Source: Shinella curvata
GTDB lineage: Bacteria > Pseudomonadota > Alphaproteobacteria > Rhizobiales > Rhizobiaceae
Length of the DNA stretch: 64,000 nucleotides
Assembly (NCBI RefSeq): GCF_022899935.1
Contig: NZ_JALJCJ010000004.1
Span: forward strand, 62,001-126,000
Reading direction: 5' to 3'
In this document: in pieces, positions 27,217 through 61,673 of the stretch
How positions within the stretch are numbered: the stretch's first letter is position 1
Layout of the letters: each line of letters opens with the position of its first letter
Position numbers and translations under genes: made by a program
The notes under the pieces: generated by a model
Seen by the model: only the letters and a program-made list of their open reading frames with translations
What the model was told of the DNA's origin: nothing
The model's database searches: none

Positions 27217-27688
27217 CGGATATGCTCCTCAGTTCTTCCTGACGCGCACACGATTGTCCCTCGCCCGCATCGAAGATGGAGCGTGAGGTCTGTGGGCAGG
27301 GGATGTTCAACGGTCTGAGCCGTGTTTGGAAATTACGCTGGCCTCATGCTGCCTCGCCGAAGGCCGGCTTAGCCTCCGAGCGTCTGATCGGCTCGATGCC
27401 GCGAACAGGATGGGGCAGAACGACGCCATAAGCCCGGCGGTTGGTTCCCCCGGTGATTCACCTTGAAGGCAATGAAGTGGTTTCTCTTGCTCATGAATGT
27501 TCGCCCGTTTGACTGGACGGCACATTATGGAGCGGAAACCGCTTCGAACAGATATTCTATTATTTTGATAGAATTAATAGGAGAAGAAATTTCCGTTTGA
27601 ACGGGGCATCCATAAGAGCTGCCGACAAAGTGAGCTTACACCATGTGCGGCGTCGCCTATGGTCGAGATTTATCCCACGATCTACGTC
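27217..27688. other. Leader/intergenic region upstream of the liv-type operon
   Basis: No gene is convincing here; the 72-codon minus-strand ORF ending at 27307 has no family or good start. The outstanding element is the ATTCTAT-N7-ATAGAAT palindrome at 27554-27574, annotated separately, within an AT-rich patch (27541-27600) that would suit a promoter. Confidence 0.5.
27554..27574. promoter_or_regulatory. Candidate operator, perfect ATTCTAT-N7-ATAGAAT palindrome
   Basis: ATTCTAT (27554-27560) and ATAGAAT (27568-27574) form a perfect 7+7 inverted repeat. Related half-sites stand upstream of three minus-strand units in the organosulfur-like cluster (55887-55893, 58874-58894 and 61653-61673). 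The best reading is one regulator controlling all four, possibly a LysR-type sulfur-limitation regulator; the regulator itself is not in this window. Confidence 0.55.
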
Positions 27689-28218
27689 TCACGCAGGAAC
27701 GTAGGTCAATCTGAGCACATCCTCAGCAATCCGATCATGCGCTACAAGGCGCAGTCGCGGCCGAGGCCCTGCGAAATACGGACTGCCATGACCAAGCACG
27801 ACAGGATGCAGGTAGATTCGGTATTCATCGATCAGGCGTGCTCGGTGAGGCTTTGTGCCAGAACCGGCCCGGCGACCTCGATCTCCCCCTCATGTTCTGC
27901 CTTCAACCTTCGGATTGCGACCTCAAGATCGTCGCCGACAAGCGTGGCGTTTGGGCCGACAGACGTCAACGAGCGCGAGATGACCCATTTGGGCTGCTTG
28001 CGCCATGCTGCTGCAAAGGCCCGTTCGTCCGCGTCCCATTCAGGGTGCTCATCGTCCCAGTAGCGCATAATCTCATACATTTGGCGGCCGTACACGCTGC
28101 CCGCCTGCCCGCGCGCTTCCTCGATGAAGTGGCGGAAGAGTGTGGGGCTTGGTGCAAACGCCATATGATCGACGTAGCCATCCAGAGACTGGTTCATACC
28201 AAATACGAGCTTGGCCAT
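27689..28218 (-). pseudogene. Dihydrofolate reductase-fold (RibD C-terminal-like) protein, one-base frameshift
   Basis: The protein reads 'MAKLVFGMNQSLDGYVDH...' through 'GDDLEVAIRRLKAEHEGEIEVAGPVLAQSLTEH', and then a premature stop at 27834-27832. If one G is restored (GCACGCC for expected GCACGGCC at about 27836), the typical ending 'LIDEYRIYLHPVVLGHGSPYFAG...LTYVPA' follows in the next frame to 27689. That gives about 176 residues, normal for the YyaP/YwjB-type family of DHFR-like reductases. Either a recent inactivating deletion or a sequencing error is possible. Confidence 0.85.
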
Positions 28219-28260
28219 ATCCTGCTTCCCTCCATTTGACGGGATACATCATGCCGATGT

Positions 28261-28277
28261 GATTGCATTATGCAATC
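28261..28277. promoter_or_regulatory. Perfect 17-base palindrome upstream of the DHFR-fold gene
   Basis: GATTGCAT-T-ATGCAATC is an uninterrupted perfect palindrome about 43 bases upstream of the DHFR-fold gene start. Its size and position suit a dimeric repressor operator (for example GntR or TetR type). No regulator gene is adjacent. Confidence 0.5.
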
Positions 28278-28462
28278 AGTTATGCGGCGATCGGTTGGCT
28301 TTCTGTCGCAATGCGTTTGGGAGGCGAGGATCGCGCCTGGCGGTGGCCTCCTGTCCGGACTCAAGCCGGCAGTCGAATGCGGATGACCCATGCAAAGTTT
28401 GGGTTGACCGTTTTCCATGGCCAGACGACACTTCGACCGACAGCGAGGCAGGAGGAAAAGCA

Positions 28463-28768
28463 ATGGACGAACCAGACCGGTGGCGCCACATGTCAAGCGC
28501 ACCGAGAGACGGCAGCCGGGTTCTTGTCACAGTCCGTTCTTCCGAACAGGGCCCAGCGGAAGTGGACGTGGCCTACTGGTCGAACGGTGACCGGTTCGGG
28601 GCAGAAGGCTGGCGCGCGTCGGATTCCTCTCCCGGCCGCATTGTCGAATATGCCGAACCGGAGTTGAAATGCTGGATGCCGATGCCCTCGGCCGACCGCA
28701 GCCGCGCCTCAGCGCCTTCGCCCTGGCAGGGTGAGGACGCCCAGCAGCTTGACGGATCCGGGATCTGA
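28463..28768 (+). CDS. Small conserved rhizobial hypothetical protein
   Basis: This is a 101-residue protein starting 'MDEPDRWRHMSSAPRDGSRVLVTVR' and ending 'QQLDGSGI'. The 'M.SAPRDGS.ILV' opening and 'W.....F..EGW' centre are common in small rhizobial proteins of unknown function. AGGAGG at 28450-28455 lies 7 bases before the ATG at 28463, a strong ribosome-binding site that fixes the start and rejects the longer ORF from 28211. No neighbour indicates a role. Confidence 0.75.
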   Translation: MDEPDRWRHMSSAPRDGSRVLVTVRSSEQGPAEVDVAYWSNGDRFGAEGWRASDSSPGRIVEYAEPELKCWMPMPSADRSRASAPSPWQGEDAQQLDGSGI

Positions 28769-29144
28769 CGGGCCGTTCTGCCACCGGGTTCTGAAACGGG
28801 GCATAAGCCGGTGTCAGTGGCCGGGCAGCCCAGGCACCCGGGCGGGAGTGGAGTTCAAGACGTGTAACCGTGCCGGTCGCCCCTACGCCGAACGGCCGCC
28901 TCTTTCAGTAAGAAGATTCCGGCGGTGTCGGCGTCCTGTTCGCTGGGATCGTCCGACATGAAGCCTGTTTTCGCTATGTAAACGAAGGCCCTTGCTGGAA
29001 ATCCTCCACATCGGCGAACGCGTCTCACCTGTTGTTCGACAAGTGGCTTGGGGCCGACCGAGATCACCCCGTCAAGATTTGAACGGAGAGCGCCGCCCCG
29101 CATGCGGTCTCGATGGTCGGCGGCGCCCTGTCTACACCCTTCCG
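28769..29144. other. Intergenic stretch between small protein and nrdF
   Basis: No gene could be supported. A minus-strand ORF (28855-29103) lacks a convincing start and family. GCGCCGCC (29090-29097) and GGCGGCGC (29119-29126) form an 8-base stem just beyond the nrdF stop and may be the 3' hairpin of the nrd operon, though no T-run follows. Confidence 0.45.
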
Positions 29145-32292
<3,148 letters not shown>

Positions 32293-32296
<4 letters not shown>

Positions 32297-32700
32297 CGTG
32301 TCCAAAATCGTTCCAATCCATCTTTGACATTGGCGACATCCTCCGCGGTGCCCAAAAGCTCGAAGCGGTAGAGATAGGGCACACCGCACTTGGCGGATAT
32401 GACGTCGCCGGCGATCCCGAAGGTCGCACCGAAATTGCTGTTGCCCGCAGCGATCACGCCGCGAAGGTTGGCGCGGTTTTCCGCATCGTTGAGGAAGCGG
32501 ATCACCTGCTTGGGAACGGCGCCCTTCACACCGCCCTGCCCGTCCTCGCCGCAATAGGTCGGCACGACGAGGACGAAAGGCGTGGCTGCCTTCAGCGCCT
32601 CGTCGGCGCGAAGCGGGATGCGGGCGGCTGGAAGGTCGAGCTTTTGCACGAAGCGATGGGTGTTTTCCGACCGGGTGGAAAAGTAGACGAGTTCACCCAT
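32293..32700 (-). CDS. nrdI: Flavodoxin-like ribonucleotide reductase activator NrdI
   Basis: This FMN-binding flavodoxin-like protein supplies the oxidant (superoxide or peroxide) used to assemble the Mn(III)2-tyrosyl radical cofactor in NrdF. It is 135 residues with the family segments '[17 protein letters not shown]', '[27 protein letters not shown]' and '[14 protein letters not shown]'. It sits between nrdH and nrdE, with a 10-base gap to the nrdH stop and an ATGA overlap with nrdE. Confidence 0.95.
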
Positions 32701-32710
32701 TGCCGTCGCT

Positions 32711-32932
32711 TCAGGCGAGTGCGCTGATCATGTCCGGGCGAAAACCAGCCCAATGCTGCTCGCCGGCGATGACGACGGGAACCTGGCGGTAGCCGAGACC
32801 CTGGACGAGCGCGAAAGCCTCCGCATCCTCGGAAACATCGACGACGCTGTAGTCGATGCCCTGGCGGTCGAGCGCGCGGGTGGTCGCGGTGCACTGGACG
32901 CAGGAGGGCTTGGAATAGACGGTGATGGACAT
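32711..32932 (-). CDS. nrdH: Glutaredoxin-like protein NrdH
   Basis: This is a 73-residue thioredoxin-fold electron donor for NrdEF. The redox motif is CVQC in '[17 protein letters not shown]', followed by the NrdH-specific C-terminal '[18 protein letters not shown]'. GAGGAA precedes the ATG at 32932. It is the first gene of the operon and lies about 270 bases downstream of a cobalamin riboswitch. Confidence 0.95.
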
Positions 32933-32973
32933 GGTTTCCTCGTGATCTGGCGATTGGACATGGGAAGTTATTC

Positions 32974-32991
32974 GGTCATCCGCCGATGACC
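32974..32991 (-). repeat. Small perfect hairpin in the nrdH leader
   Basis: GGTCATC and GATGACC form a perfect 7-base stem with a CGCC loop about 40 bases upstream of the nrdH start. It lies within the riboswitch leader and could be part of the expression platform, although it is not next to the ribosome-binding site. Confidence 0.4.
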
Positions 32992-33199
32992 GTTCGATGA
33001 ATTGAAAATGACTGGACGGCGGCCTTCAGGGCCGGCCGGACGCGGGGCGCCGCTTACTCGCGCGGATGCACTGGAAACACATTCGACATGACTTCACCCC
33101 GAAGCTATTCATACGGGGCACCTGGGGAGACGGCGGGGCGGCATCATTCCGCAACCCATCGCTCGCCTGTCGGACACCCCGCCCGTGGACGTTCATGCT

Positions 33200-33388
33200 C
33201 GAGGCAGGTCTCCTGGCTTGCGGGTCGCGGCACTCGCTCGCCTTCCCAAGGCATTTGCGCCTCAGTGGCTTTGTCGAACGAATGCTCGCCGCTTACAGTT
33301 GCGGGGGCAGCTCCGGATTGACGCGGCCATCATGGCCGCCCCGGATTCCCGTCTTAGCCTTCAATTCTGCGAATCGAAGGAACCTCGA
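33200..33388 (-). ncRNA. Cobalamin (adenosylcobalamin) riboswitch
   Basis: Read on the minus strand, this leader has the conserved cobalamin-riboswitch blocks in order. These are a GGGAATCCGG-type 5' block, AATCCGGAGCTGCCCCCGC, AACTGTAAGCGG, a GCCACTG block, GGGAAGGCGAGCGAGTG, and finally the B12 box ending AGGAGACCTGCC (33219-33203). It stands between a promoter-like sequence and nrdHIEF. Binding of adenosylcobalamin is expected to lower expression of this B12-independent ribonucleotide reductase. The leader between the box and nrdH contains GC-rich complementary segments (about 33130-33190) that could serve as the switching hairpin. Confidence 0.95.
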
Positions 33389-33397
33389 ACACTAGAT

Positions 33398-33425
33398 ATA
33401 GTAGACAAGGTAAAAATTGCGTCAA
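33398..33425 (-). promoter_or_regulatory. Promoter of the riboswitch-nrdHIEF unit
   Basis: On the minus strand TTGACG (33425-33420) and TACTAT (33403-33398) are spaced by 16 bases. The predicted transcript start around 33390 coincides with the 5' edge of the riboswitch aptamer, which supports the call. Confidence 0.6.
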
Positions 33426-33823
33426 TCACTATGATCGGTTATCAACGGTTTCATGTCGAGCGAGGGGCGTTTCGCTTGGCGCGAACTGTGACCCCAATGA
33501 TATCGGCCGGTCTGCGACGATTTCGTAAGCCTTCCCATCTCCGCAAGATAACTCCCCCAGGCACCGTCATGCCGGATCATATGGCAGCCGGGTGCTGTTT
33601 CGATTTCCGGTGCTGTGAGGGCGTGACATGGGACCGGGCTTCAACAGGCGAAGCACTCGGCCCTCTGAACTGCTGCCCCAAGGAAAACGTGTCTCTGCAT
33701 GTCCAACTCGGCGACGGGGGCTCGCTTTCCGGAACATTCGGCATATGGGAGGGTTGGGTTCTCGGCAATCCGGAGTATGTCCGTGGTCGTCACAGAAGCT
33801 GATGCCGAAAGGATGAGACGGCG
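33426..33823. other. Intergenic region between nrd promoter and cupin gene
   Basis: No gene is supported: plus-strand ORFs here run across the riboswitch on the other strand. The last 40 bases contain AAAGGA before the cupin start. No promoter was recognised with confidence. Confidence 0.5.
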
Positions 33824-34336
33824 ATGAAACAACCGGCGACGCTTTTCTTCTCCGCCAGCGAATGGGTGCCGAACCACCCGTTTCTGCCCGTGCTCGTCTA
33901 TCGGGCTGTTCTTGCCGCGGATGTGGACGACCGTGCCCATGCTTTCGAGCAGCTGTTTCGTGCTGCGGGTTGGCTGGGTCTTTGGCGCAACGGCGTGTTT
34001 TCCTACCAGCATTATCACGTCGGAGCGCATGAAGTGCTCGGCATAGCCGAAGGGCGCGCCGAGTTGCTGATCGGTGGGCCGGACGGCGAAGCCCTCGAGG
34101 TCCGTGCCGGCGATTGCCTCGTTTTGCCCGCAGGCACGGGGCACAAACGCAACGGGGCGAGCGACGATTTTCTGGTGATCGGCGGCTACCCGCCCGGTCA
34201 GTATGCCGATATCGCGACGGCCGGTGCCACAGAGGGCGAGTTGAGGATCATCGCGTCTCTGCCCGTTCCAGAGACTGATCCACTTTACGGATCGACTGGC
34301 CCGCTGGTCGCATTGTGGCGCAGCGGCGACACATGA
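33824..34336 (+). CDS. Cupin-domain protein, YjlB-like
   Basis: This is a single-domain cupin of 170 residues. The metal-binding cupin motif 1 is 'YQHYHVGAHEVLGIAEGRAELLIGG' (residues about 61-85) and motif 2 is 'LVLPAGTGHKRNG'. The arrangement and length resemble the Bacillus YjlB group of unknown function. It stands 133 bases before an unusual amidase gene in the same orientation, separated by a perfect palindrome at 34386-34401. A paired role in modifying or sensing the amidase substrate is a guess. Confidence 0.82.
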   Translation: MKQPATLFFSASEWVPNHPFLPVLVYRAVLAADVDDRAHAFEQLFRAAGWLGLWRNGVFSYQHYHVGAHEVLGIAEGRAELLIGGPDGEALEVRAGDCLVLPAGTGHKRNGASDDFLVIGGYPPGQYADIATAGATEGELRIIASLPVPETDPLYGSTGPLVALWRSGDT

Positions 34337-34385
34337 ACCTTGCCGGCCGGCCGCGCCGTCCCGTGCCTGCACGCCGAGTCGATCC

Positions 34386-34401
34386 TGTCCCATATGGGAC
34401 A
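34386..34401. promoter_or_regulatory. Perfect 16-base palindrome upstream of the atypical amidase
   Basis: TGTCCCATATGGGACA is a perfect palindrome in the 133-base gap between the cupin and amidase genes, 68 bases before the amidase ATG. It looks like a dimeric regulator operator. No regulator gene is adjacent. Confidence 0.5.
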
Positions 34402-34469
34402 TTGCCCGTCGAAATGTCGATGGCTAGAACGGAGGTGCGAGACTGCTGGTTGCTTGCGGGAGGACATCG

Positions 34470-36470
34470 ATGAAGGTTGTCGAAGCTTCGATTGGGACGT
34501 TGCGCGAAGCGCTCCAGACAGGGCAGACGACGAGCGTGGGTCTGGTGGCGGCCTATCTGAACCGCATCGCCTTTTACGATCGGCACGGCATCGCGCTCAA
34601 TGCGGTGCCGGTACTCAATCCCGACATGTTCGCCGATGCGCGCGCCTCCGATCTGCGGCGTGCGCGTGGCGAAAGCCTCGGCCCGCTCGACGGCATCCCC
34701 TATACGGCCAAGGACAGCTACAAGGTGAAAGGGCTGAGCGTCGCATCCGGCTCGCCCGCCTTCGCAGACCTCATTGCAACGGAAGACGCCTTTGCAATTT
34801 CCCGCCTTCGGGCCGCCGGTGCGGTGCTGGTCGGGTTGACGAACATGCCGCCGATGGCCAATGGCGGGATGCAGCGCGGCGTCTACGGCCGCGCGGAATC
34901 GCCCTACAATCCCGAGTGGCTGACGGCCGCCTTCGGGTCCGGCTCGTCCAATGGCTCGGGCACCGCGACGGCCGCAAGCTTCGCCGCTTTCGGATTGGGC
35001 GAGGAAACCTGGTCGAGCGGCCGCGCGCCCGCCGCCAATAACGGTCTCTGCGCCTATACGCCGAGCCGTGGCGTCATATCCGTGCGGGGCAACTGGCCGC
35101 TCGTTCCGACCATGGATGTCGTGGTTCCGCATAGCCGGTCGATGGCGGATATGCTGGAGTTGCTCGATATTATCGTTGCCGACGATCCCGAGACGCGCGG
35201 CGACCTCTGGCGCCGCCAGACCTGGGTCAACATCCCCAAGGCCTCCGAGATCCGGCCGTCGTCCTATGCGGATATTGCCGCGACCGCGAGCCTTGCCGGC
35301 AAGCGCTTCGGCCTGCCGGCGATGTATATCAACGCCGATCCGGCAGCAGGAAGCGGTGCCAGGGTAGGAATTGGCGGGCCGACGGGCCAGCGCATCGAAA
35401 CCCGCATATCGATGATGGCGCTGTGCTCGGCGGCGCGGGCGGCGCTTGAGGCTGCAGGGGCCGAGGTGGTGGTCACGGATTTCCCTGTCGTCAGCAATTA
35501 CGAAGGAGACCGGCCCGACGCGCCGACCATTGCAACGCGCGGTCTCGTCAGCGCCGACTATCTTCACCGTGAGATCGTGGACCTCTCCGCCTGGTCGTGG
35601 GACGACTTTTTGGCCGCCAATGCCGATCCCAGCCTGTCGCGGCTCACCGATGTCGATGGCAGTCGTATCTTTCCCGCACCGAAAGGCAGCCTGCCCGACC
35701 GCTATCACGGCTTCGACGATCACATCGCCGACTACCCCGCCCATCGGCGCGACCATGGGGTGACCTCGTTCGAGGATATTCCAGGTCTTGCCGAAGGGTT
35801 TCGCGGCCTTGAGGAGACGCGCCGTATCGATCTGGAAGTCTGGATGGACGAGCTGGGGCTTGATGCGGTCATCTTTGCCGCCGTCGCCGATATCGGCCCG
35901 GCCGATGCCGATGTGAACCCCGTTTCTGCCGATCTTGCTTGGCGGAATGGTACCTGGGTCGCCAATGGCAACCTGGCGATCCGTCATCTCGGCATTCCCA
36001 CGGTGACGGTCCCGATGGGAATGTTGGCCGATATCGGCATGCCGGCAGGACTGACCTTTGCCGGCCGGGCCTGGGACGATACGGCCCTTCTCGCCTATGC
36101 CTGCGCCTTCGAAAAGACTGGCGCCTATCGCCAGACACCCCCTCGGACCCCGGAACTACCGGACCTTGCCGTCTCAGCCGGAACAAGCGTTCCGGGCGCG
36201 GACGATCTGCGACTTGACGTGGCGATCACCGCCGACTGTCACGGACGTGAGCGCCTGTCGATAAGGACGGAGAGCCAGAGCCGGCTGCTCTGGCTGACGG
36301 TGAACGGCGTGCCCGTCGCGTTTCGGCAGGAAGGCGGACAGATCGATGCAAATCTCGATCTGGAGCAGAACACCCGCATTCACAGCGAATGGCGAGGCCC
36401 CTACGGGCATATCGTGATTGCTTGCACCGAGGATGCCGCCGCCTATGCCATCGTGGGTGGGGCGGCCTGA
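34470..36470 (+). CDS. Atypical amidase signature protein with an extra C-terminal domain
   Basis: The N-terminal 530 residues form an amidase signature domain. The triad is preserved: Lys81 ('YTAKDSY'), Ser159 in 'GSGSSNGSG' and Ser183 in 'GEETWSSGR', with the normal 24-residue serine spacing. The usual G-x-D-T-G-G-S-I-R has become GEETWSSGR, placing a Trp and a second Ser next to the nucleophile, so the substrate pocket is probably unusual. About 120 extra residues at the C terminus ('LRLDVAITADCHGRERLSIRTESQSRLLWLTVNG...') look beta-rich and are not part of the amidase fold. GGGAGGA lies before the ATG at 34470. Confidence 0.85.
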   Translation: MKVVEASIGTLREALQTGQTTSVGLVAAYLNRIAFYDRHGIALNAVPVLNPDMFADARASDLRRARGESLGPLDGIPYTAKDSYKVKGLSVASGSPAFADLIATEDAFAISRLRAAGAVLVGLTNMPPMANGGMQRGVYGRAESPYNPEWLTAAFGSGSSNGSGTATAASFAAFGLGEETWSSGRAPAANNGLCAYTPSRGVISVRGNWPLVPTMDVVVPHSRSMADMLELLDIIVADDPETRGDLWRRQTWVNIPKASEIRPSSYADIAATASLAGKRFGLPAMYINADPAAGSGARVGIGGPTGQRIETRISMMALCSAARAALEAAGAEVVVTDFPVVSNYEGDRPDAPTIATRGLVSADYLHREIVDLSAWSWDDFLAANADPSLSRLTDVDGSRIFPAPKGSLPDRYHGFDDHIADYPAHRRDHGVTSFEDIPGLAEGFRGLEETRRIDLEVWMDELGLDAVIFAAVADIGPADADVNPVSADLAWRNGTWVANGNLAIRHLGIPTVTVPMGMLADIGMPAGLTFAGRAWDDTALLAYACAFEKTGAYRQTPPRTPELPDLAVSAGTSVPGADDLRLDVAITADCHGRERLSIRTESQSRLLWLTVNGVPVAFRQEGGQIDANLDLEQNTRIHSEWRGPYGHIVIACTEDAAAYAIVGGAA

Positions 36471-36584
36471 TCGCGAAGCACGCGGCGCTCTGCCCTCTAT
36501 CCCGACACCGGCGGGCCGTCCACGGTGAAGCGGAGTGCCCTGCCGTCGCGAACAAGACCTGCCAAGCGACCGCACCGGCGGCCT

Positions 36585-37286: not shown

Positions 37287-37308
37287 CGTCTTTCTCCTTG
37301 TTGTTCAG

Positions 37309-37536: not shown

Positions 37537-37744
37537 CGTTCTGCTCCCGACATTCGATTGAAGTACCCTACAGGCCATCAAAGGCCGCTCGAGAGTTACA
37601 AATCTGGCGGGATTCCGTTGCACCACACGGCCGATGAGGCGCGTGGGCGACGACCGAATGAAAAATCAATGCCATACCCGATTGCGGAGCACTCTCCGCT
37701 CTCATATCTCTTCGCCTAGGATGCCTTGACTGGGAGGATGCCAC

Positions 37745-39841: not shown

Positions 39842-39881
39842 CGGTCCCCGCTCCTCCCGGGAGCGAACGGCGCCGCACTTG

Positions 39882-39909: not shown

Positions 39910-39934
39910 AAGATGGTACAGGACAGGCCTGCGG

Positions 39935-48762: not shown

Positions 48763-48763
48763 G

Positions 48764-48783: not shown

Positions 48784-48793
48784 TTTGGATGCC

Positions 48794-50481: not shown

Positions 50482-50516
50482 TCCTTTTCTTTCGTCCAAC
50501 AATGGGAGTACGGACA

Positions 50517-51374: not shown

Positions 51375-51396
51375 TCCAGCCTGCCCGGAGCCCAAC

Positions 51397-52179: not shown

Positions 52180-52205
52180 GGGCGGCGCGACGCAGGAGAA
52201 CCGAC

Positions 52206-54402: not shown

Positions 54403-54430
54403 ACCTGCGCGTTGCAACGCAGCCGATTTC

Positions 54431-55798
54431 CTAATGTGTGTGAGGGGTCGCCGTCGCAAGCCATGTTTCGAGCGCCCCCGCCGCCGCGTGAGCCTGGACG
54501 ACGATCTGCGGCACGAGGTCGATATCCGGCAGGCTCCCAAGACCGAGAGGCCCCATTGCAAAAAGGCCTTCGAAGCTTCCTGACGCAGCCAGCGCCCTTC
54601 CGTCACGATCGACGGTGATGCCGAGGTCGAGTTCGTCCCGCCTGACGAGCTGCGCGGACAGCAACGAACGGAACAGTGGGGAATCGAGATCGGTCGGGCG
54701 CACGCGACAATCGATCGTGCGGTCCGCCGGCAGCACCTGCAGCCCCGCCGCGCCTGAAAGCAGCACGCCGTTCGTAGCGATGCGCTCGACCCTGCCCTTC
54801 CGCACCGTGATTGCACCGCTGGCAATCGCCTGGCGCAGGCGCTCGTAGTGGCCAAGCGGAAGACGGTTGCGGTGGCTGTCGTAGATCGGCTTGACATGGC
54901 GCTTGAAGCGGCGCCGCTCCTCCGGCGTCAAACCCTGCCAGAGGTCCCGTGCGCGCAGGCGAAAATCGTTCATGATGCCCTGCCAGCCGGTGCCTTCCAG
55001 CGCGGCCCGGTTTGCCGCCTCGCGCAGATGGCGGAATGCGCCGCGAAGCGTATTCGGGAAAGGACGATCGGACGCAATGGCGCCGACGGCCGACGATGCG
55101 TGTGGCTGCGGCAGGAAGCCGGACGCGGAGATCAACGTCACATGGGACGCTTCTCCCGCCGCGAGCAGGCGCAAGGCGCGATCGACGGCGTGAACGCCGC
55201 CACCGATCACCTGCACTTCTCGCGCACTTGTAAGGCCCGCCGTGCCGTCGGGACTGTCGCGCAGTCCGTAACCCGTGGCCAGGAACACGGTGTCGAAACG
55301 CGCCTGCTCGCCATCGCCGGACAGAACTGACAGGCCTGCCTGCGGATGCCGCTCGATCGTCGCCACGCTTTCCGAACGCACCTGGACCATGACGTCGGCG
55401 CGCGCCCGCAAGGCTTCGGAGAAGCGCTGATAGGCGTAGGCGCTGAACACCTCTCCCGGTACGAAGGCGTGGTCGACATTACCGGACAGGCCGTCCTCGT
55501 GATCGCGCCAGTCCTCGTTGGTTTCCAGCCATTGCCGGAAATCGTCGCGCGCGGTCGGGTCGACCGAGAGATCGCGTACCCGGCTGTTGAGCAGTGCGGA
55601 AGCCGGACGGCCGATGCCCTCGCCACCGTCGATTTTCGGGAACGGATCGAACATCACGAGATGGAAAGGGCGATGAAAAGTCTTCAGCAGCGCAATCGCC
55701 GTCATGAGACCGGTAAAGCCGCGTCCGACGATGGCGATCCGGGCAAGAGAACCGGTATCCAGCGATTGCGGGAGGAAATGGGCGGGCACAAGCGTCAT
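54431..55798 (-). CDS. FAD/NAD(P)-binding oxidoreductase (NAD_binding_9 type)
   Basis: This is a flavoprotein of 455 residues with two dinucleotide-binding motifs: GRGFTG after 'IAIVG' near residue 26, and 'VQVIGGGVHAVDRALRLL' in the middle. The FAD/NAD(P)-binding DUF-type proteins of this shape include putative hydroxyacylglutathione-, sulfur- and aromatic-metabolism enzymes. AAGGAG lies 7 bases before the ATG at 55798, which rejects the start at 55867. A half-site of the shared ATTCTAT motif lies 90 bases upstream. Function unknown; the sulfur cluster context suggests oxidation of an organosulfur compound. Confidence 0.82.
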   Translation of the reverse strand: MTLVPAHFLPQSLDTGSLARIAIVGRGFTGLMTAIALLKTFHRPFHLVMFDPFPKIDGGEGIGRPASALLNSRVRDLSVDPTARDDFRQWLETNEDWRDHEDGLSGNVDHAFVPGEVFSAYAYQRFSEALRARADVMVQVRSESVATIERHPQAGLSVLSGDGEQARFDTVFLATGYGLRDSPDGTAGLTSAREVQVIGGGVHAVDRALRLLAAGEASHVTLISASGFLPQPHASSAVGAIASDRPFPNTLRGAFRHLREAANRAALEGTGWQGIMNDFRLRARDLWQGLTPEERRRFKRHVKPIYDSHRNRLPLGHYERLRQAIASGAITVRKGRVERIATNGVLLSGAAGLQVLPADRTIDCRVRPTDLDSPLFRSLLSAQLVRRDELDLGITVDRDGRALAASGSFEGLFAMGPLGLGSLPDIDLVPQIVVQAHAAAGALETWLATATPHTH

Positions 55799-55886
55799 CG
55801 ATAGGCTCCTTTCCTGCACAATGTGCGGCGGCTTCCAGAACTCGTCCTGTCCGACGAGTGGTGACACGGCTTTATCGACTAAAACA

Positions 55887-55893
55887 ATAGAAT
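55887..55893 (-). promoter_or_regulatory. Half-site of the shared ATTCTAT motif upstream of the flavoprotein gene
   Basis: ATAGAAT (plus) equals ATTCTAT read toward the flavoprotein gene, and the extended minus-strand sequence TATTCTATTGTTTT matches the first bases of the perfect palindrome at 27553-27566 with one difference. The partner half is weak. Confidence 0.4.
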
Positions 55894-55939
55894 ACCGCGC
55901 GGAAAATCAAGTCCTCCTTGCTGCAAGCCGGTTGGGCAA

Positions 55940-56275
55940 TCAGAGCGGCAGAAGCGCCTGTTCGAAAATCTTCGTCGAGCGCGCACCTGACCGGCAATAG
56001 GCGAGGACAGGCCCCGGTAACTCAGCGAGCGCCTTTGTCATGCTGCTCAGTGCCTCGGCCGTCAGTCCGGATGGCGCGACAGGGATATGCCGCGCTTCGA
56101 TGCCCAGTTCGCGCGCGCGGGCGGCAATGCTGGCGAATTCCGGCTGGTCTGGTTGTTCGTAGTCCGGGCGATGGCACACGATCGAGCGAAAGCCGAGCAG
56201 GCTGACGATATCGACGTCTTCAGCCTCGATCTGCGGCGAGACCGAATAGTCGTCGTTGATCTTGCGAATATCCAT
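55940..56275 (-). CDS. Rhodanese/DSP-like protein (TIGR01244, BLH N-terminal type)
   Basis: This 111-residue protein resembles the N-terminal domain of Blh (beta-lactamase-hydrolase-like) and TIGR01244 sulfurtransferase/phosphatase-like proteins. The opening 'MDIRKINDDYSVSPQIEAEDV' is characteristic, and the active-site loop is CRSGAR at residues 94-99. GGAAA precedes the ATG at 56275. It follows ssuB by 41 bases and would handle sulfane sulfur released from the imported sulfonate, or act as a small phosphatase. Confidence 0.82.
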   Translation of the reverse strand: MDIRKINDDYSVSPQIEAEDVDIVSLLGFRSIVCHRPDYEQPDQPEFASIAARARELGIEARHIPVAPSGLTAEALSSMTKALAELPGPVLAYCRSGARSTKIFEQALLPL

Positions 56276-56316
56276 GGGCATTTCCTTCATTTTGGTGCCG
56301 GAAGAGGAACGGCTCG

Positions 56317-57060
56317 CTAAACCGCGTCCAGGATGCGGCGTTGGAGATCTACGGCGCGCGGATCGGCGAGCTCCTGGCGCGGGCGATCGAGAGCGATCTC
56401 GATATCGAGCGCGATGGCCCCCTCCCGCAGGACGACGACACGGTCCGCCAGCGCAACTGCTTCGGCGACATCGTGCGTGATCAGAACCGTGGTGAAGCCG
56501 CGTGCGGTCCAGATGCGCTCGAGCAACCGGTGCATTTCGATGCGGGTGAGCGCATCCAGCGCACCGAAAGGTTCGTCGAGCAACAGGATCTGCGGTTCGC
56601 TGACGAGGGCCCGAGCCAGGGCGACGCGTTGGCGCTGGCCGCCGGAAAGAACGCTTGGCCAATCGTTCTCACGCCCCTCAAGCCCGACGTCCGCAAGCGC
56701 GCGGCGCGCCGTCTCCTGCCAGTTGGGGCCACGGGCAATGCCGACATTTTCGATGACGCGCTGCCACGGTACCAGCCGCGCCTCCTGAAAGAGCAGGCGC
56801 ACGGATGGATGAAGGCGCTCGACCTTGCGACCTCCAATATTGACGCGGCCGCTGTCCGCCCCATCGAGCCCGGCGACGAGACGCATCAGGGTCGATTTGC
56901 CTCCACCCGACCGGCCGACCACGGCCAGGAACTGGCCCGCCGGGATATCGAGGTTGAAATTGCCGAGCACATTCAGCGCGCCAAAGGACTTTTCGACCCG
57001 CGAAAGGCTGATCGGCAGACCGCCGGTGCTTTCGGGCTCATAGGCATCGGCTACGCTCAT
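56317..57060 (-). CDS. ssuB: Sulfonate-type ABC transporter ATPase (SsuB)
   Basis: This NitT/TauT-type ATPase has 247 residues. Walker A is GRSGGGKST (49-57), followed by 'RLLFQEARLVPWQRVIENVG' (a SsuB hallmark), signature 'LSGGQRQRVALARALV' and Walker B 'ILLLDEPFGALDALTR'. The start shares ATGA with the ssuC stop. It is the only ATPase in the 54.4-61.6 kb cluster, and could in principle also serve the adjacent polar amino acid permease. Confidence 0.93.
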   Translation of the reverse strand: MSVADAYEPESTGGLPISLSRVEKSFGALNVLGNFNLDIPAGQFLAVVGRSGGGKSTLMRLVAGLDGADSGRVNIGGRKVERLHPSVRLLFQEARLVPWQRVIENVGIARGPNWQETARRALADVGLEGRENDWPSVLSGGQRQRVALARALVSEPQILLLDEPFGALDALTRIEMHRLLERIWTARGFTTVLITHDVAEAVALADRVVVLREGAIALDIEIALDRPRQELADPRAVDLQRRILDAV

Positions 57061-57896
57061 TTCGCACTCCCCGACTTCACTTGGTAGGCGGGATGCCAGA
57101 CGAGCACGCGCTTTTCGATCGCCCGGGTCGCCACGTCGGCAAGCTTGCCGAGAAGCGCGTAGACGATGATGCCGAGAAGTACGACATCGGTCTGCAGGAA
57201 TTCACGCGCGTTCATCGTCATGTAGCCGATGCCGCTGGTGGCCGAGATCGTCTCGGCGACGATGAGCGTGAGCCACATGAAACCGAGCGCGTAGCGCAGG
57301 CCAACGAGGATCGATGGCAGCGCGCCCGGAAGGATGATGCGCTGGATCAGGGCTTTGCGGTCGAGGCCATAGACCGAGGCCATTTCGACGAGCTGCGGAT
57401 CGATGGTCCGCACCCCGTAGAAGGTATTGATATAGATCGGAAAGAAGACGCCGATCGAAACGAGGAAGATCTTGGCCGTCTCGTCGATGCCGAACCAGAG
57501 GATGACGAGCGGGATCAGTGCCAGATGCGGAATGTTGCGCACCATCTGCAACGTGCTGTCGAGCAAAGTCTCCGCGGGTTTCCAGAGCCCGGTGAGAACG
57601 CCAGCGATAAAGCCGAGCCCGCCGCCGATGACGAGCCCGATGACGGCGCGCTGCGTGGAGGCAAGCGTGTGAAAGAACAGCGAGCCATCCAGCAGCAACC
57701 GCCAGAAGGTCGTGGCGATCTTCGTTGGCGCCGGCATGAGACGGGCGTTGACGAAACCGCTCTGCGACGCAATCTCCCAGAGAACGAGGAGCGTGATGGG
57801 AAGTGCCCAAGGGGCAAGCACGCTCGCCAGGCCCTTCAGGTTGAGTTTACGGCCTTCGCCGGCAGCATAGCCACCGGCCACCGACGCCTCCGCCAT
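57057..57896 (-). CDS. ssuC: Sulfonate-type ABC transporter permease (SsuC)
   Basis: This is a NitT/TauT-type permease of 279 residues. Segments are 'PWALPITLLVLWEIASQSGFVNARLMPAPTKIATTFWRLL' at the start, 'TLQMVRNIPHLALIPLVILWFGIDETAKIF' and the EAA-type loop 'YGLDRKALIQRIILPGALPSILVGLRYALGFMWL'. It begins one base inside the ssuA stop (TGATG) and overlaps ssuB by four bases. The C-terminal 'VSATSGIGYMTMNAREFLQTD' is typical. Confidence 0.93.
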   Translation of the reverse strand: MAEASVAGGYAAGEGRKLNLKGLASVLAPWALPITLLVLWEIASQSGFVNARLMPAPTKIATTFWRLLLDGSLFFHTLASTQRAVIGLVIGGGLGFIAGVLTGLWKPAETLLDSTLQMVRNIPHLALIPLVILWFGIDETAKIFLVSIGVFFPIYINTFYGVRTIDPQLVEMASVYGLDRKALIQRIILPGALPSILVGLRYALGFMWLTLIVAETISATSGIGYMTMNAREFLQTDVVLLGIIVYALLGKLADVATRAIEKRVLVWHPAYQVKSGSAK

Positions 57897-58846
57897 CAGG
57901 CACCGCCCTTGCGCACGGCGTCTGCAATCGAGATCCTTTCAGGGATCAGGCCGAGGTCGAAGAAGGTATCGGCAATCGACTGCTGTTGCTTGACCACGCT
58001 GTCATCGATGGCTTTCACGCCGTAGGATTGCCGCTCCAGCGCGACGGCCAGCACATCTGCAGGGATGCCGACGGATGGGGCAAGTTCCGCTGCTGCGGCC
58101 GCGGTGTTGGTTTTCGCCCATTCGTCGATCTCCGCAACGGCTTCGATCACCACATCCACCGCTTCAGGATTGTCTTCCACGAACGGCTTTGCGCCAAGAT
58201 AGAACTGGTGGTTGGGGACGATGCCCTCGCCGTTGCGCAGCTCGCGCGCCTCGATGGCGACTTCCGCGGCCGCCTGGAAGGGATCCCAGATGACCCAGGC
58301 ATCGACAGCACCCTGTTCGAAGGCGGCGCGACCGTCGGCCGGCGGCAGGAAGGTCGTCTTGATGTCGGTATATTTGAGGCCGGCTTCCTCAAGCGCCTTC
58401 ACCAGGAGAAAATGTACGTTCGAACCCTTGTTGAGCGCGACGGTCTTGCCTTTGAGATCGGCCACCGTCTTGATCGGGCTATCCTTGGGCACGAGGATCG
58501 CCTCGCCGCGCGCCGCCGGCGGCTCATGGGCGATGTAGACCAGCGGTGCGCCGGCGGCCTGCGCGAAGATCGGCGGGGTCTCGCCCGTCGTGCCGAAATC
58601 CACGGCGCCGACATTCAGCGCTTCGAGCAGTTGCGGGCCGGCGGGGAACTCGGTCCACGTCACGGTGTAGCCGATTTTCTCCAGCTTCTTTTCGAGCAAT
58701 GCCTTGCCCTTGAGCAGTACGAGCGTGCCGTATTTCTGGTAACCGATCCGGACGACCTTGTCGGAAGCCCAGGCGACGCCACCCAGAAGCGGCAGAGTGA
58801 TCGTAGCGGCAAGCGCGGCGGAGAAAAGGCGGCGTGTCATCGTCAT
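57896..58846 (-). CDS. ssuA: Sulfonate-type ABC substrate-binding protein (SsuA)
   Basis: This is a periplasmic binding protein of 316 residues with a signal peptide (MTMTRRLFSAALAATITLPLLGGVAWA). Mature-protein features are 'VVRIGYQKYGTLVLLKGKALLEKKL', 'EFPAGPQLLEALNVGAVDFGTTGETPPIFAQAAGAP' and 'ALNKGSNVHFLLVKALEEAGL', which match SsuA rather than TauA or NrtA. A promoter region with the ATTCTAT motif lies just upstream. No ssuD/ssuE monooxygenase genes are nearby. Confidence 0.93.
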   Translation of the reverse strand: MTMTRRLFSAALAATITLPLLGGVAWASDKVVRIGYQKYGTLVLLKGKALLEKKLEKIGYTVTWTEFPAGPQLLEALNVGAVDFGTTGETPPIFAQAAGAPLVYIAHEPPAARGEAILVPKDSPIKTVADLKGKTVALNKGSNVHFLLVKALEEAGLKYTDIKTTFLPPADGRAAFEQGAVDAWVIWDPFQAAAEVAIEARELRNGEGIVPNHQFYLGAKPFVEDNPEAVDVVIEAVAEIDEWAKTNTAAAAAELAPSVGIPADVLAVALERQSYGVKAIDDSVVKQQQSIADTFFDLGLIPERISIADAVRKGGA

Positions 58847-58873
58847 GGCGTTCCCCTTCGAGATAGTTTCTAA

Positions 58874-58894
58874 AGACTATATAATCTATAGAAT
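58874..58894 (-). promoter_or_regulatory. Shared motif upstream of ssuA (AGACTAT-N7-ATAGAAT)
   Basis: AGACTAT (58874-58880), a 7-base spacer and ATAGAAT (58888-58894) match the palindrome at 27554-27574 in 12 of 14 half-site bases. It lies 28 bases upstream of the ssuA start, in the gap after the homocysteine S-methyltransferase gene. Confidence 0.55.
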
Positions 58895-58992
58895 TTAAAT
58901 GTCGGCGAGGGTGCCTATTCCAACTTTCACCGGACTGCGTAGTTTTTTCTCCTATTCTTGCCGCAAGCCTCCGCCTGGCCGATGTCATCCAC

Positions 58993-59916
58993 TCAGACCG
59001 CTTCCCGAACGCTCCGGAATGTGCGGATCGCATCGATATGTTCCGGCCCGATGCCACAGCAGCCGCCGACGATGGTCGCGCCATCGCGGAGCCAGCGCTC
59101 GATCCATTTCAGGTAGTTTGCCGGATCGAGATCTGCGCGAATGTCGGAAATGCCGGCATAGGGCGTATCGGAGGGCGGTTCGGGTGCAAAGGCGTTGGCG
59201 TAGACGCCGATGGTCGCTGTGCCACCCGTTTCGTCCACTGCCTGGCGCGCGGCGCGCACGGCCTCGCCCATCACTTCCGGTTGACTGCAGTTGAAAAAGA
59301 CCCCGCGGGCGCCCGCGGCAAGCGTTTTACGCACGGCGTCCTCGACCGGTTCGCCGGAACGCAGTTCCGCCGGCCCCGTGCGCCCGTCCTCGTCTTTCAG
59401 CGTATAGGACACATAAGCCGGCTTGCCATCGCCGATCACCGCGGACAACGCAGTCAAAGCCTCCACTGTCGAACTCTGGGTCTCGATCAGCCAAAGATCG
59501 ATATGGGGCCTCAAGCCGTCGACGAGATTCTGGATGATGCGCGGTGCGCCGTCCGCGTGAAAGCGTTCCGGCCGGTAGCTTTCGAATGGCGGGGGCAGCG
59601 AGCCCGCGACCAGAACCCGCCGGCCGGCGGCATCGGCGACTGCGCGCGCGAGCTGTCCGGCACGGTCGGCGAGCGCCCGACCGCTCGCGGCGAAGCGGTC
59701 CTCGCCCAGCATATGCGGCACGAGACCGTAGGAATTGGTCGTGATGATGTCGGCACCGCTATCGACATAGGCCTGATGTGCTCGGGTGACATAGTCAGGC
59801 GCCTCGATCAGCGAGAGCGCCGACCATTCCGGCAACCGGAAGGGGGCGCCGAGCCGTTCGAGGAGGCGCCCCATGCCACCATCGAGAATGGTAAAGGATG
59901 CACGATCTGTGGTCAT
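58993..59916 (-). CDS. Homocysteine S-methyltransferase family protein
   Basis: This zinc-dependent methyltransferase has 307 residues and would transfer a methyl group from S-methylmethionine (or a related donor) to homocysteine. The zinc ligands Cys210 ('FFNCSQPE') and Cys286-Cys287 ('GGCCGIGPEHI') are present, as is the N-terminal 'LDGGMGRLLERLG'. AAGGAGGA precedes the ATG at 59916, which overlaps the permease stop by four bases. The upstream polar amino acid permease and binding protein would import the methyl donor or another sulfur amino acid. Confidence 0.92.
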   Translation of the reverse strand: MTTDRASFTILDGGMGRLLERLGAPFRLPEWSALSLIEAPDYVTRAHQAYVDSGADIITTNSYGLVPHMLGEDRFAASGRALADRAGQLARAVADAAGRRVLVAGSLPPPFESYRPERFHADGAPRIIQNLVDGLRPHIDLWLIETQSSTVEALTALSAVIGDGKPAYVSYTLKDEDGRTGPAELRSGEPVEDAVRKTLAAGARGVFFNCSQPEVMGEAVRAARQAVDETGGTATIGVYANAFAPEPPSDTPYAGISDIRADLDPANYLKWIERWLRDGATIVGGCCGIGPEHIDAIRTFRSVREAV

Positions 59917-60773
59917 TTTGTTCCTCCTTGCCGATCGCCGGCGAATGCGCGACCGAAATGCCGCTCCAGACGGTTCTGCACGAGCTCGAGGCCAATCGAC
60001 AGAAACCAGTAGATCGCCGCCGCCGTCAGCAGCATTTCCATGTAGTGATAGGTGGCCCGGCCGTAGGACTGCGCCAGAAAATTCAGCTCCCAGAGCCCCA
60101 TGATGGAGACGAGCGACGAATCCTTCAACATCGAGATGAAGTGGCCTCCGGCCGGCGGGATGATGATGCGCATCGCCTGCGGCGCAATGATCTTGAAGGC
60201 GATGACGCCACGCCCAAGCCCAAGTGCCACCGCAGCTTCCCCCTGCCCGCGAGGCACGGACAGAATGCCGGCGCGGATCGTTTCGGCGAGGTAGGCGCCA
60301 TAGTTCAGAGACAGCGCGACTATGCCGGAGGCGAGCCCTGACAGCACCACGCCAAACTGTGGCAGTGCGAGATAGATGATCAGCACCTGCACCAAGAGCG
60401 GCGTTCCCCGGAAAAAGGACGCGTAGAAGGTGGCCACGCCGAAGGCCAGTGCATTGGACGACAGGCGGCCGAGCGCCGTCAGGACAGCCACCACCAGCGA
60501 GATGGCCATGGAAACGACGGTGATCAGCAAAGTAAGCGCGACGCCCTGAATGAAGCCATCGGGCGAGAGGCGCAGGCCGAGCATGAAGGGCAGTTTCTGT
60601 CCGATCAGATCGAAGTCCAGCCCGAGATTGTAGAAGAGCCAGAAAAGCAGCGCCAGCAGAGCCAGCCACGTCAACTGGACGCGCAGCCGAAAGCCGGCAG
60701 GCCCGGTCACGGCGAACCGTGGCCGGGCACCGGTCGATGTCCGCAAGGTAGGAAGACCAACGTCAGAATGCAT
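59913..60773 (-). CDS. Polar amino acid-type ABC transporter permease
   Basis: This is a HisM/GlnP-type permease of 286 residues. 'GVALTLLITVVSMAISLVVAVLTALGRLS' and the loop 'VPRGQGEAAVALGLGRGVIAFKIIAPQAMRIIIPPAGGHFISMLKDSSL' are typical. It overlaps the binding-protein gene by 11 bases and the methyltransferase gene by four. No ATPase gene of this subfamily is present in the cluster. Confidence 0.92.
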   Translation of the reverse strand: MHSDVGLPTLRTSTGARPRFAVTGPAGFRLRVQLTWLALLALLFWLFYNLGLDFDLIGQKLPFMLGLRLSPDGFIQGVALTLLITVVSMAISLVVAVLTALGRLSSNALAFGVATFYASFFRGTPLLVQVLIIYLALPQFGVVLSGLASGIVALSLNYGAYLAETIRAGILSVPRGQGEAAVALGLGRGVIAFKIIAPQAMRIIIPPAGGHFISMLKDSSLVSIMGLWELNFLAQSYGRATYHYMEMLLTAAAIYWFLSIGLELVQNRLERHFGRAFAGDRQGGTK

Positions 60774-61587
60774 ATCGGGTGATATCGACCTTGAACCACT
60801 TCTGCGAAATTCTTTCGAGCGTGCCGTCGTCCTTGAGTTCTGTGATAACCCGCTTCACTTCGGCGTCCCATTCCGGGTCGCCCTTGTCGGTGACGACGGC
60901 GTTGGGCTCGGCAAAGAGCGGTTCGCCCGCGAGCTTGAGTTTGCCCGTCGCATCGATCTGGCCCTGCGCCGTGCCGAGCGAGGCGACGATGGCATCAAGG
61001 CGCACACCGGCGCCGAGCGCAAGATTCTGGAAGTTGACCGTCTCATCGTTCGGTACCGACTGTACGGCGCCGAACGGGAAGGCAATCGCCGCCTGCCCGG
61101 GAATCGTGAAACTCTTGTTGACATAGGCCTCATAGGACGAGCCCGTGCCGACACCGACCTTCTTGCCCGTCAGGTCGGCCGCGGACCTGATCGCCTGCTC
61201 GTCCTTGTTCACGACGAGGACCGCGGGAACGCTGTAGTAGTTCACCGGGAAATTGACGACCTTCGCCCGCTCTTCCGTCGGAGTGGACGAGGTGATCGCG
61301 ACATCCCAGCGCCCAGCCCAGCGGCCGCTGATGATCGTTTCCCAGCCGGGCGTCTCGAGCTTCAGCTTCACGCCGAGCTTTTCGGCAAACGCCTTGGCCA
61401 CATCGATGTCGAAGCCGTCAAGTTGGTTCTTGTCGTTGATATAGGCAAAGGGCGGATAGTCGTTGACGACGGCGTTGACCACTTCGCCCTTCTGCTTGAC
61501 GCGATCAAATACCTCGCCGGCGTGGGCGGCAGTGGCGATGGCGGAAAGTCCAAACGCGAGAATGGTGTTTTTGAGCAGTTTCGACAT
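60763..61587 (-). CDS. Polar amino acid-type ABC substrate-binding protein (sulfur amino acid-like)
   Basis: This family 3 periplasmic binding protein has 274 residues and a signal peptide (MSKLLKNTILAFGLSAIATAAHA). Features are 'YPPFAYINDKNQLDGFDIDVAKAFAEKLGV', 'WETIISGRWAGRWDVAITSSTPTEERAKVV' and 'KKVGVGTGSSYEAYVNK'. GGAGG lies 6 bases before the ATG at 61587. It leads a three-gene unit (binding protein, permease, homocysteine S-methyltransferase), consistent with uptake of S-methylmethionine or a cystine-like ligand. Confidence 0.92.
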   Translation of the reverse strand: MSKLLKNTILAFGLSAIATAAHAGEVFDRVKQKGEVVNAVVNDYPPFAYINDKNQLDGFDIDVAKAFAEKLGVKLKLETPGWETIISGRWAGRWDVAITSSTPTEERAKVVNFPVNYYSVPAVLVVNKDEQAIRSAADLTGKKVGVGTGSSYEAYVNKSFTIPGQAAIAFPFGAVQSVPNDETVNFQNLALGAGVRLDAIVASLGTAQGQIDATGKLKLAGEPLFAEPNAVVTDKGDPEWDAEVKRVITELKDDGTLERISQKWFKVDITRYAF

Positions 61588-61652
61588 GATAGCCTCCAGC
61601 TGTGTCCGATAACGGAGCTTAGCGGGGCGCATCTGCTCAAAGTAGATAATTA

Positions 61653-61673
61653 ATTCTATAATATTTGTGTAAT
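61653..61673 (-). promoter_or_regulatory. Shared motif upstream of the binding-protein/methyltransferase unit
   Basis: ATTCTAT (61653-61659), a 7-base spacer and GTGTAAT (61667-61673), with 4 of 7 matching in the second half. It stands 66 bases upstream of the binding-protein start. Confidence 0.45.

Follow-up and report, generated by a model that had tools for sequence, protein, structure and literature searches.

Palindromic sites and genes in the window

The window is a 64,000-nucleotide stretch of Shinella curvata DNA. It carries a liv-type transporter operon preceded by the remains of an FMN monooxygenase gene, a flavoprotein gene, an ssuACB unit with a sulfur-transferase-like gene, and a unit encoding a family-3 binding protein, a permease and a homocysteine S-methyltransferase-like protein (Table 1). 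The sequence-only reading had placed related palindromes upstream of these four, and minus-strand genes were indeed found downstream of all four sites. The perfect 7+7 palindrome that it described at 27554-27574 was borne out, as were the related copies at 58874-58894 (two mismatches) and 61653-61673 (three mismatches). At 55887-55893 the motif ATAGAAT was present as claimed, but it is not a mere half-site, being one arm of a complete degenerate site at 55872-55894. The 23-bp palindrome common to the sites is TAATCTATARAWTYTATAGATTA.

Table 1. Putative operator sites and predicted genes in the window (site scores are from the 23-bp matrix)
Feature	Position	Strand	Basis
livF-type ATPase	20903..21679	-	PF00005; relatives with same order
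liv binding protein 2 (ORF)	21731..23272	-	PF13458
liv binding protein 1	23143..24471	-	PF13458; 91-96% identity in three relatives
livM-type permease	24488..25540	-	PF02653
livH-type permease	25544..26425	-	PF02653
livG-type ATPase	26422..27216	-	PF00005, PF12399
Relic, last 22 codons of NtaA/DmoA-type monooxygenase, other frame	27347..27412	-	54.5% identity, E 0.011
Relic, first 24 codons of NtaA/DmoA-type FMN monooxygenase	27423..27494	-	58% identity to L062 protein, E 1e-4
Site, perfect 7+7 palindrome, promoter of lost monooxygenase	27553..27575	.	28.1 bits
Flavoprotein, FAD-NAD(P)-binding	54431..55798	-	PF13454; start codon conserved
Degenerate site, includes half-site 55887-55893	55872..55894	.	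18.4 bits
Sulfur-transferase-like gene (approximate start)	55940..56272	-	TIGR01244 100 bits, cutoff 85.85; residues 131-233 of ORF 55940-56662
ssuB-like ATPase	56317..57060	-	NF008420 307.7 bits, below cutoff 395
ssuC permease	57057..57896	-	NF008470 347.4 bits, cutoff 347
ssuA, sulfonate binding protein	57896..58846	-	NF008588 315 bits, cutoff 299
Site before ssuA	58873..58895	.	31.1 bits; conserved in 7/7 aligned promoters
Second conserved block TAGGAGAAAAAACTAC, ssuA promoter	58939..58954	-	promoter alignment
Homocysteine S-methyltransferase-like protein (approximate start)	58993..59910	-	PF02574 189 bits; residues 261-549 of ORF 58993-60669
Permease of binding-protein unit	59913..60773	-	PF00528; nearest model cystine permease, below cutoff
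Family-3 binding protein	60763..61587	-	PF00497; nearest model cystine-binding NF008426 147.5 bits, below cutoff 312
Site before binding-protein unit	61652..61674	.	24.2 bits

For the binding protein of ORF 60763-61716 the ATG at 61587 is the most likely start codon, which places the 61653 site upstream of its gene.

By mismatch count alone the four-site set is only mildly unusual. Three matches were counted in the window compared to 0.61 expected, and three or more were obtained in 3 of 100 shuffles. Across the whole genome 22 sites lie within three mismatches compared to 16 for the reversed pattern, while a refined 17-bp core gave 13 rows at three mismatches compared to 11 control rows. As the excess over controls is this small, raw mismatch counts were rejected as proof of an operator.

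A symmetric 23-bp scoring matrix with the consensus TAATCTATAAAATTTATAGATTA was built, its symmetry being imposed by construction, although the arms of the palindrome are visible in single sites. Orthologous groups were down-weighted, and the SfnB group (10 sites) was excluded because its arms are shifted, standing 2 bp wider apart. Since the training sites came from a core partly derived from the ssuA site, the matrix was run in three versions: with all groups, without the SsuA group and without the monooxygenase groups. The four places noted by the earlier reader took ranks 1-4 in the window. Over the three versions site 58873 scored 28.6-31.1 bits, site 27553 26.8-28.7, site 61652 23.4-24.3 and site 55872 18.3-19.3. 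In 6.07 Mb of Markov-1 random sequence, the size of the genome, five matches reached 12 bits and none reached 14. The window together with loci on C11, C12 and C15 of this genome held 14 sites of at least 18 bits.

Many equally good matches in unrelated AT-rich regions had been named as the result that would speak against a shared operator. Among the 22 genome sites within three mismatches, all six scoring at least 24 bits precede organosulfur-type genes or the relic operon; four of these six were used in training the matrix, the exceptions being 27554 and 61653 in the window. Two further sites precede unrelated genes (20.0 and 15.9 bits), and the other 14 scored at most 4.3 bits.

All four sites were also conserved in other Shinella genomes. 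In the 55872 site ATTCTATTGTTTT was kept in all seven promoters aligned, one from this genome and six from relatives; the far arm reads GTAGA in two of them and GTAGG in two more. The 61652 site was kept in its one close ortholog (G025), and the 27554-site promoter aligned with three relatives, two more having matching sites. We accept a shared operator because of the matrix ranks and this conservation, rather than mismatch counts.

The second conserved block in the ssuA promoter, TAGGAGAAAAAACTAC, was found in nine exact copies, each adjoining an ssuA-type site. It was rejected as a second regulon motif: with up to two mismatches it gave 13 rows compared to 33 control rows in 21 genomes.

Distribution and gene context of the sites in Shinella

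With up to two mismatches the core gave 69 rows in 21 Shinella genomes compared to 8 for the reversed control. By hand tally, 49 of the 62 distinct sites precede organosulfur-type genes: an SsuA-like Tat binding protein (14), SfnB-like proteins (9), FMN monooxygenases (7), SsuA (6), the flavoprotein (6), 2OG oxygenases (2), acyl-CoA-dehydrogenase-like proteins (2), and an MsuE-type reductase, a phosphosulfolactate-synthase-like protein and a distant SsuA-like protein (one each). In this tally gene neighbourhood decided the class of the flavoproteins and 2OG oxygenases; the Tat binding protein was classed on an SsuA-family score below cutoff (81.6 of 163.5). Twelve sites were ambiguous as to gene class (G004:C5, G004:C22, G007:C22:221407, G011:C1:899356, G011:C24:305290, G010:C16:117002, G010:C11, G023:C3:1065641, 1976249 and 2126903, G001:C2:196691 and G027:C4), and one, before a magnesium transporter and scoring -3.5, was put down to chance (G011:C1:395709). 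The matrix scores, the conservation of the sites and the genes that follow them across the genus together uphold the claim of one shared operator before organosulfur-type genes.

In many genomes the palindrome precedes genes for binding proteins (sulfonate-type and others), FMN monooxygenases, SfnB-like proteins, FMN reductases and partner flavoproteins, and its spacing from each kind of gene varies little. The start codon is mostly 15-74 bp away: 15-30 bp for FMN reductases, 28-31 bp for ssuA, 44-48 bp for the C12-type flavoprotein (in 5/6), 48-54 bp for the SsuA-like Tat binding protein where the ORF start codon is the same, 61-64 bp for the monooxygenase and 65-68 bp for SfnB-like genes. 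Sites stand further off at SsuD-like genes (114 bp) and at those for 2OG oxygenases (142-246 bp), and these match repression less well.

AT-rich sequence, a position mostly near start codons and counts at three mismatches barely above controls in this genome are also what would be expected if the palindromes were core-promoter (-10) boxes, alike by chance and not operators. We find this hardly credible, as single sites have two arms over 23 bp, the asymmetric core can point either way with respect to its gene, sites are kept where the flanking DNA has diverged, and the excess of genus rows over the control falls mostly before one gene class. The plain -10 box was rejected on mixed orientation and conservation.

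The liv-type operon and its lost monooxygenase

At the DNA level a match covers 27422-27595 of the window on the 5' relic side, and 27222-27414 matches the 3' end of the monooxygenase and the following gap. An NtaA/DmoA-family FMN monooxygenase of the liv operon is lost here through a 1.26-kb deletion. All five relatives with this liv operon have the site and an intact monooxygenase directly before livG, and the three relatives that were read through share one arrangement: site, monooxygenase, livG, livH and livM, both binding proteins, then livF. The second binding protein is conserved from about residues 41-60 onward, and its true start is probably near 23080.

The earlier claim that the liv-type transporter belongs to the system thus stands on the five relatives, but the site is not directly before livG in this strain, where the relic lies between. 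We take the transporter to be part of an operon that is now headless; because the monooxygenase is deleted, the liv-type transporter is all that still follows the palindrome. The liv operon might then lie outside the regulon in this strain, silent or with another promoter, and the palindrome be a fossil, since the monooxygenase is gone and the livG start is now about 340 bp from the site. Both arms of the 27554 site are still perfect, however, and with the arrangement conserved in relatives, both before livG and through livF, we regard a fossil as rather unlikely.

A candidate Rrf2 regulator and its likeness to known systems

A candidate regulator gene lies outside the window (contig C12, 138291-138752). 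Its product belongs to the Rrf2 superfamily (TIGR00738 105 bits, cutoff 73.3; PF02082 121.5 bits, cutoff 30), and an intact ortholog was found in 20 of 21 Shinella genomes. All 20 have a matrix match (13.7-19.7 bits) that begins 118-200 bp upstream of the gene; these matches are weak (14.2 bits in 12/20), differ very little in sequence and may in part be promoter boxes. Three Rrf2-bearing Shinella genomes (G002, G005 and G006) had no core match with up to two mismatches, and two of them had a site of 16.6-17.0 bits near Rrf2.

In 80 Rhizobiaceae loci a match of at least 12 bits was found upstream of Rrf2 in 51/80 compared to 68/841 other genes, with four training sites that fall within the loci excluded and one kept training site (L235) looking identical to the site in L080; since the loci were fetched by way of Rrf2, the gene neighbourhood there is biased. 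Many of the 68 other genes appeared by eye to be sulfur genes. Cysteines 91, 100, 103 and 109 of the Rrf2 protein, spaced C-x8-C-x2-C-x5-C, were invariant in 80/80.

Across the family Rrf2, called at E 1e-40, was present in 8 of the 11 genomes whose core match has at most one mismatch compared to 49 of 140 others (p 0.02), and in 6 of 9 compared to 49 of 140 without the two Shinella genomes (p 0.08). Rrf2 is more widely distributed than the strict motif, and the strict phylogenetic profile gave weak backing to the pairing. In the three genomes with a core match and without Rrf2 (G040, G072 and G120), all five matches fall within or next to genes that are not sulfur-type by eye. In six non-Shinella genomes with Rrf2, 7/8 matches precede regulon-like genes, two of which were assigned by eye or by 27-42% identity only, and the remaining match is found beside another gene, 284 bp away from that of Rrf2. 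A good site before sfnB was not found in the R. johnstonii group, although the SfnB protein is close.

The four sites are probably operators of one Rhizobiaceae organosulfur-scavenging regulon, best seen in Shinella, with a CymR-like Rrf2 protein as its putative regulator. We infer its binding, repression and sulfur signal. While sulfur is ample an Rrf2 dimer would sit on the palindrome, covering the promoter and repressing the genes, its own included; upon sulfur shortage it would let go, with the four invariant cysteines as the likely sensing site. Targets in the window would be ssuACB with the sulfur transferase, the flavoprotein, the cystine-like uptake unit with its homocysteine S-methyltransferase-like protein and the monooxygenase-liv operon. 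This would amount to a sulfur-limitation response, in which the two liv binding proteins may carry sulfur compounds. More tentatively, we suggest that this four-cysteine Rrf2 branch senses sulfur itself, through an Fe-S cluster or thiols, and governs a Rhizobiaceae organosulfur regulon that includes a liv-type importer and an NtaA/DmoA-family monooxygenase.

The same regulon could instead answer to a LysR activator of the CysB/Cbl kind under sulfur limitation, with Rrf2 a neighbour or a parallel control. The LysR box has the form T-N11-A, which the core CTAT-N7-ATAG contains, the second conserved block of the ssuA promoter could carry another protein, and the 2OG-oxygenase sites are far upstream. 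Most sites seem, however, rather near the start codon for LysR activation of the usual kind, sites related to the palindrome precede the Rrf2 gene, and in those loci of this genome that were read no LysR-like gene was seen by eye to recur beside the organosulfur sites. We consider a LysR regulator quite improbable and keep Rrf2 as the candidate.

Much soil sulfur is organic. Our search of open PubMed Central papers found no description of this operator or regulator, and nothing that it returned named a switch for organosulfur-use genes in Rhizobiaceae. The operator would bring a liv-type transporter, orphan binding proteins and the partner flavoproteins into sulfur scavenging, and with the operator defined and a single protein as candidate the question of control is directly testable. 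If the cysteines sense sulfur directly, this would be a simple link from sulfur supply to gene control.

The LysR-type regulators CysB/Cbl and SsuR control ssu and tau genes. As with the proposed regulon, ssu-type genes answer to sulfur supply in these systems, but the regulator family is another one, and activation takes the place of the repression proposed for the Shinella sites. The Fe-S regulators NsrR, IscR and RirA are Rrf2 proteins with conserved cysteines, like the candidate, which scored below their cutoffs (IscR, TIGR02010 73.2/207.55; NsrR, NF008240 49/182; RirA, NF008886 41.4/193). To our knowledge its cysteine spacing is not that of NsrR, IscR or RirA. A palindrome of about 23 bp fits an Rrf2-type operator, and the matrix has the length of the Streptomyces NsrR recognition site, given as 23 bp in the part of the source consulted (PMC9338935).

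IGTS8_peg394 of Rhodococcus qingshengii is Rrf2/CymR-like and is proposed as a global sulfur regulator in the sections consulted (PMC8557817). Unlike the candidate it is actinobacterial; its gene neighbourhood is without sulfur genes, and no operator for it was found in those sections (PMC8557817). The nearest solved structure to the candidate is that of CymR, the Rrf2 repressor of cysteine metabolism in Bacillus and Staphylococcus (2y75, E 3.8e-17). The candidate scored below the CymR equivalog cutoff (NF047409, 81 bits compared to 195), and its residues 91-109, which carry the cysteines, fall opposite a gap region of CymR in the alignment. CymR targets cysteine metabolism, whereas the targets proposed here are organosulfur scavenging genes. 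In the portion of the source seen, CymR works as a complex with CysK, an enzyme of cysteine synthesis, and only when cysteine is present (PMC9338935). Since CymR is an Rrf2 repressor of a sulfur regulon, it is a fair model of how the candidate might work.

Palindrome sites in the genome

The sequence-only reading had placed related palindromes before four units of the window (contig C14, 62001-126000, of a 6.07 Mb genome), and all four sites were present as described. By mismatch count, ATTCTAT-N7-ATAGAAT had three matches in the window versus 0.61 expected and 22 in the whole genome versus 16 for the reversed control; the question is not settled by such counting. The informative best genome matches beyond the window are listed in the table. 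The refined core TCTATAGATTNTATAGA, with up to three mismatches, gave 13 rows versus 11 for its reversed control, thus no excess by count. Seven of its nine distinct sites in this genome lay within organosulfur loci (window ssuA, four on contig C11, two on C12), the eighth, C15:159271, lay 30 bp upstream of the MsuE-type FMN reductase gene (TIGR03566 238.7 bits, cutoff 212.5) and the ninth within an ORF.

Sites and genes of the proposed regulon
Position	Feature
27554-27574 (window)	perfect palindrome, liv-type operon
55887-55893 (window)	half-site, flavoprotein
58874-58894 (window)	site, ssuA
61653-61673 (window)	site, binding-protein unit
C11:927181	site upstream of NtaA/DmoA-family FMN monooxygenase
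C12:140234	site upstream of flavoprotein
C11:942717	site upstream of binding protein
C15:159271	site upstream of MsuE-type FMN reductase
C12:138291-138752	candidate regulator, Rrf2 family

A symmetrised 23-bp weight matrix built from the genus sites ranked the four window sites 1-4, with all groups as well as without the SsuA group or the monooxygenase groups. Random Markov-1 sequence of 6.07 Mb yielded five matches with a 12-bit cutoff and none with a 14-bit cutoff. Among the 22 genome mismatch sites, six scored at least 24 bits (four of these were in the training set), 14 scored 4.3 bits or less, and two preceding unrelated genes scored 20.0 and 15.9 bits. The window and the C11 and C12 loci read contained 13 separate sites of at least 18 bits and the C15 site scored 29.6 bits; the gene behind was identified for all except those at L021:1248 and L022:48. 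A 20-bit site (L023:2371-2393, C14:582371), by eye between enolase-type and GntR-like genes with no sulfur link visible in them, is probably the operator of another regulator. The presumed operon downstream of site C11:930611 includes a serine acetyltransferase gene (L020:10539-11387), which would link O-acetylserine to the same control.

Conservation of the promoters

Searched for at two mismatches or fewer across 21 Shinella genomes, the core gave 69 rows and its control eight; 18 of the genomes had a match. Of 62 distinct sites, 49 were upstream of organosulfur-type genes, 12 were unresolved or ambiguous and one was due to chance. Within a gene family, the distance from site to start codon was near constant once corrected for ORF calls that began at too early a start codon. 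The ssuA promoters of this genome and six relatives shared TCTATAGATTAT and, upstream, TAGGAGAAAAAACTA and TTGGAAT, while seven flavoprotein promoters shared ATTCTATTGTTTT between diverged flanks. The binding-protein site was kept in G025, the sole close ortholog, and is the weakest case of conservation since the flanks there are alike too.

The block TAGGAGAAAAAACTAC (window 58939-58954, TTGGAAT downstream) was kept before ssuA and found exactly once in each of nine Shinella genomes, always beside an ssuA-type site; it is perhaps the site of a second protein. At loci L149 (G004) and L157 (G010) both conserved blocks were present in a promoter of the ssuA type; SsuA was not found in the 3-kb stretch, and the next gene in promoter direction is a 2OG oxygenase. 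SfnB-like promoters (L041:1501 and nine more) had arms two bases farther apart, CTATA-N7-TATAG, and were nonetheless fixed 65-68 bp from the start (n = 10). By eye, the sfnB promoter of the R. johnstonii group (L103:9591-9811 and related Rhizobium loci) keeps AAGAAAAT-N19-TAGAAA, which replaces the palindrome despite a close Rrf2 protein.

The liv-type operon and its monooxygenase

The palindrome assigned to the liv-type operon does belong to it, judging from the gene order of relatives, but it is not directly before livG, because a relic of an FMN monooxygenase (24 first and 22 last codons, in different frames) intervenes. Alignment to G026 and G009 revealed a single junction: window 27422-27595 matched their promoter and 5' end, 27222-27414 matched their 3' end plus the interval before livG, and 1263 of their bases in between were absent. 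Only 43 bases aligned to G001. All five genomes with the liv ATPase (E 1e-80 or better, among 20 relatives) carried an intact monooxygenase directly upstream of it, with the site 58-64 bp before its start (G025, G022, G009, G026, G001; 23.4 bits in G025, 32.6 in G022). The order was monooxygenase, livG, livH, livM, two binding proteins, livF in all three relatives read further, and the enzyme of the relatives is of the NtaA/DmoA family (TIGR03860 525 bits, cutoff 279.7). From this arrangement, the compound on which the monooxygenase acts is probably what the transporter takes up; this strain has lost that partner of the transporter at this locus. The G001 operon looks damaged in another way, its livG-type gene (L269:1991-2780) aligning in two frames.

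A candidate Rrf2-family regulator

These comparisons establish, at sequence level, a shared putative operator with its genes, position and conservation. A likely best explanation is an organosulfur regulon controlled through it by the Rrf2-family protein, whose gene is flanked by a binding protein and an SfnB-like gene. This protein would bind the palindrome and, as the position of most sites is one that RNA polymerase would occupy, repress, and it may be released when sulfur is short. The closest named relatives of its gene are from Shinella (Rhizobiaceae), the basis for the genus name used here. Of the 21 Shinella genomes, 20 carried an intact copy of the gene (contig-edge fragments only in G022), each time with a match of 13.7-19.7 bits starting 118-200 bp upstream; being near-identical, these 20 count as one observation. 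Across 80 Rhizobiaceae loci, fetched with the Rrf2 protein, 51 of 80 Rrf2 upstream regions reached 12 bits, compared with 68 of 841 for the remaining genes of these loci. Some of the latter border on the same intergenic stretch as Rrf2.

The candidate Rrf2 occurred in 8 of 11 Rhizobiaceae genomes with a core match of at most one mismatch versus 49 of 140 others (p 0.02), and in 6 of 9 without the two Shinella genomes (p 0.08); the motif-to-Rrf2 distance was 284 bp in G125 and 742 bp in G172. The main rival, an unlikely one, is a LysR-type activator instead of Rrf2: the core also matches the LysR box form, and some sites lie farther upstream. These farther sites, and the p of 0.08 once Shinella is left out, take a little weight from Rrf2 control and add to that of LysR.

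A second Rrf2-family gene (L022:11674-12155) adjoins the C12 flavoprotein; it is split over two frames here and open in several relatives. In the candidate Rrf2 itself, four cysteines, which may form the sensor, were invariant in 80 of 80 proteins, and their C-x8-C-x2-C-x5-C spacing recurred in three of four paralogs displayed. Among solved structures, it is closest to CymR proteins and to a BadM/Rrf2 protein.
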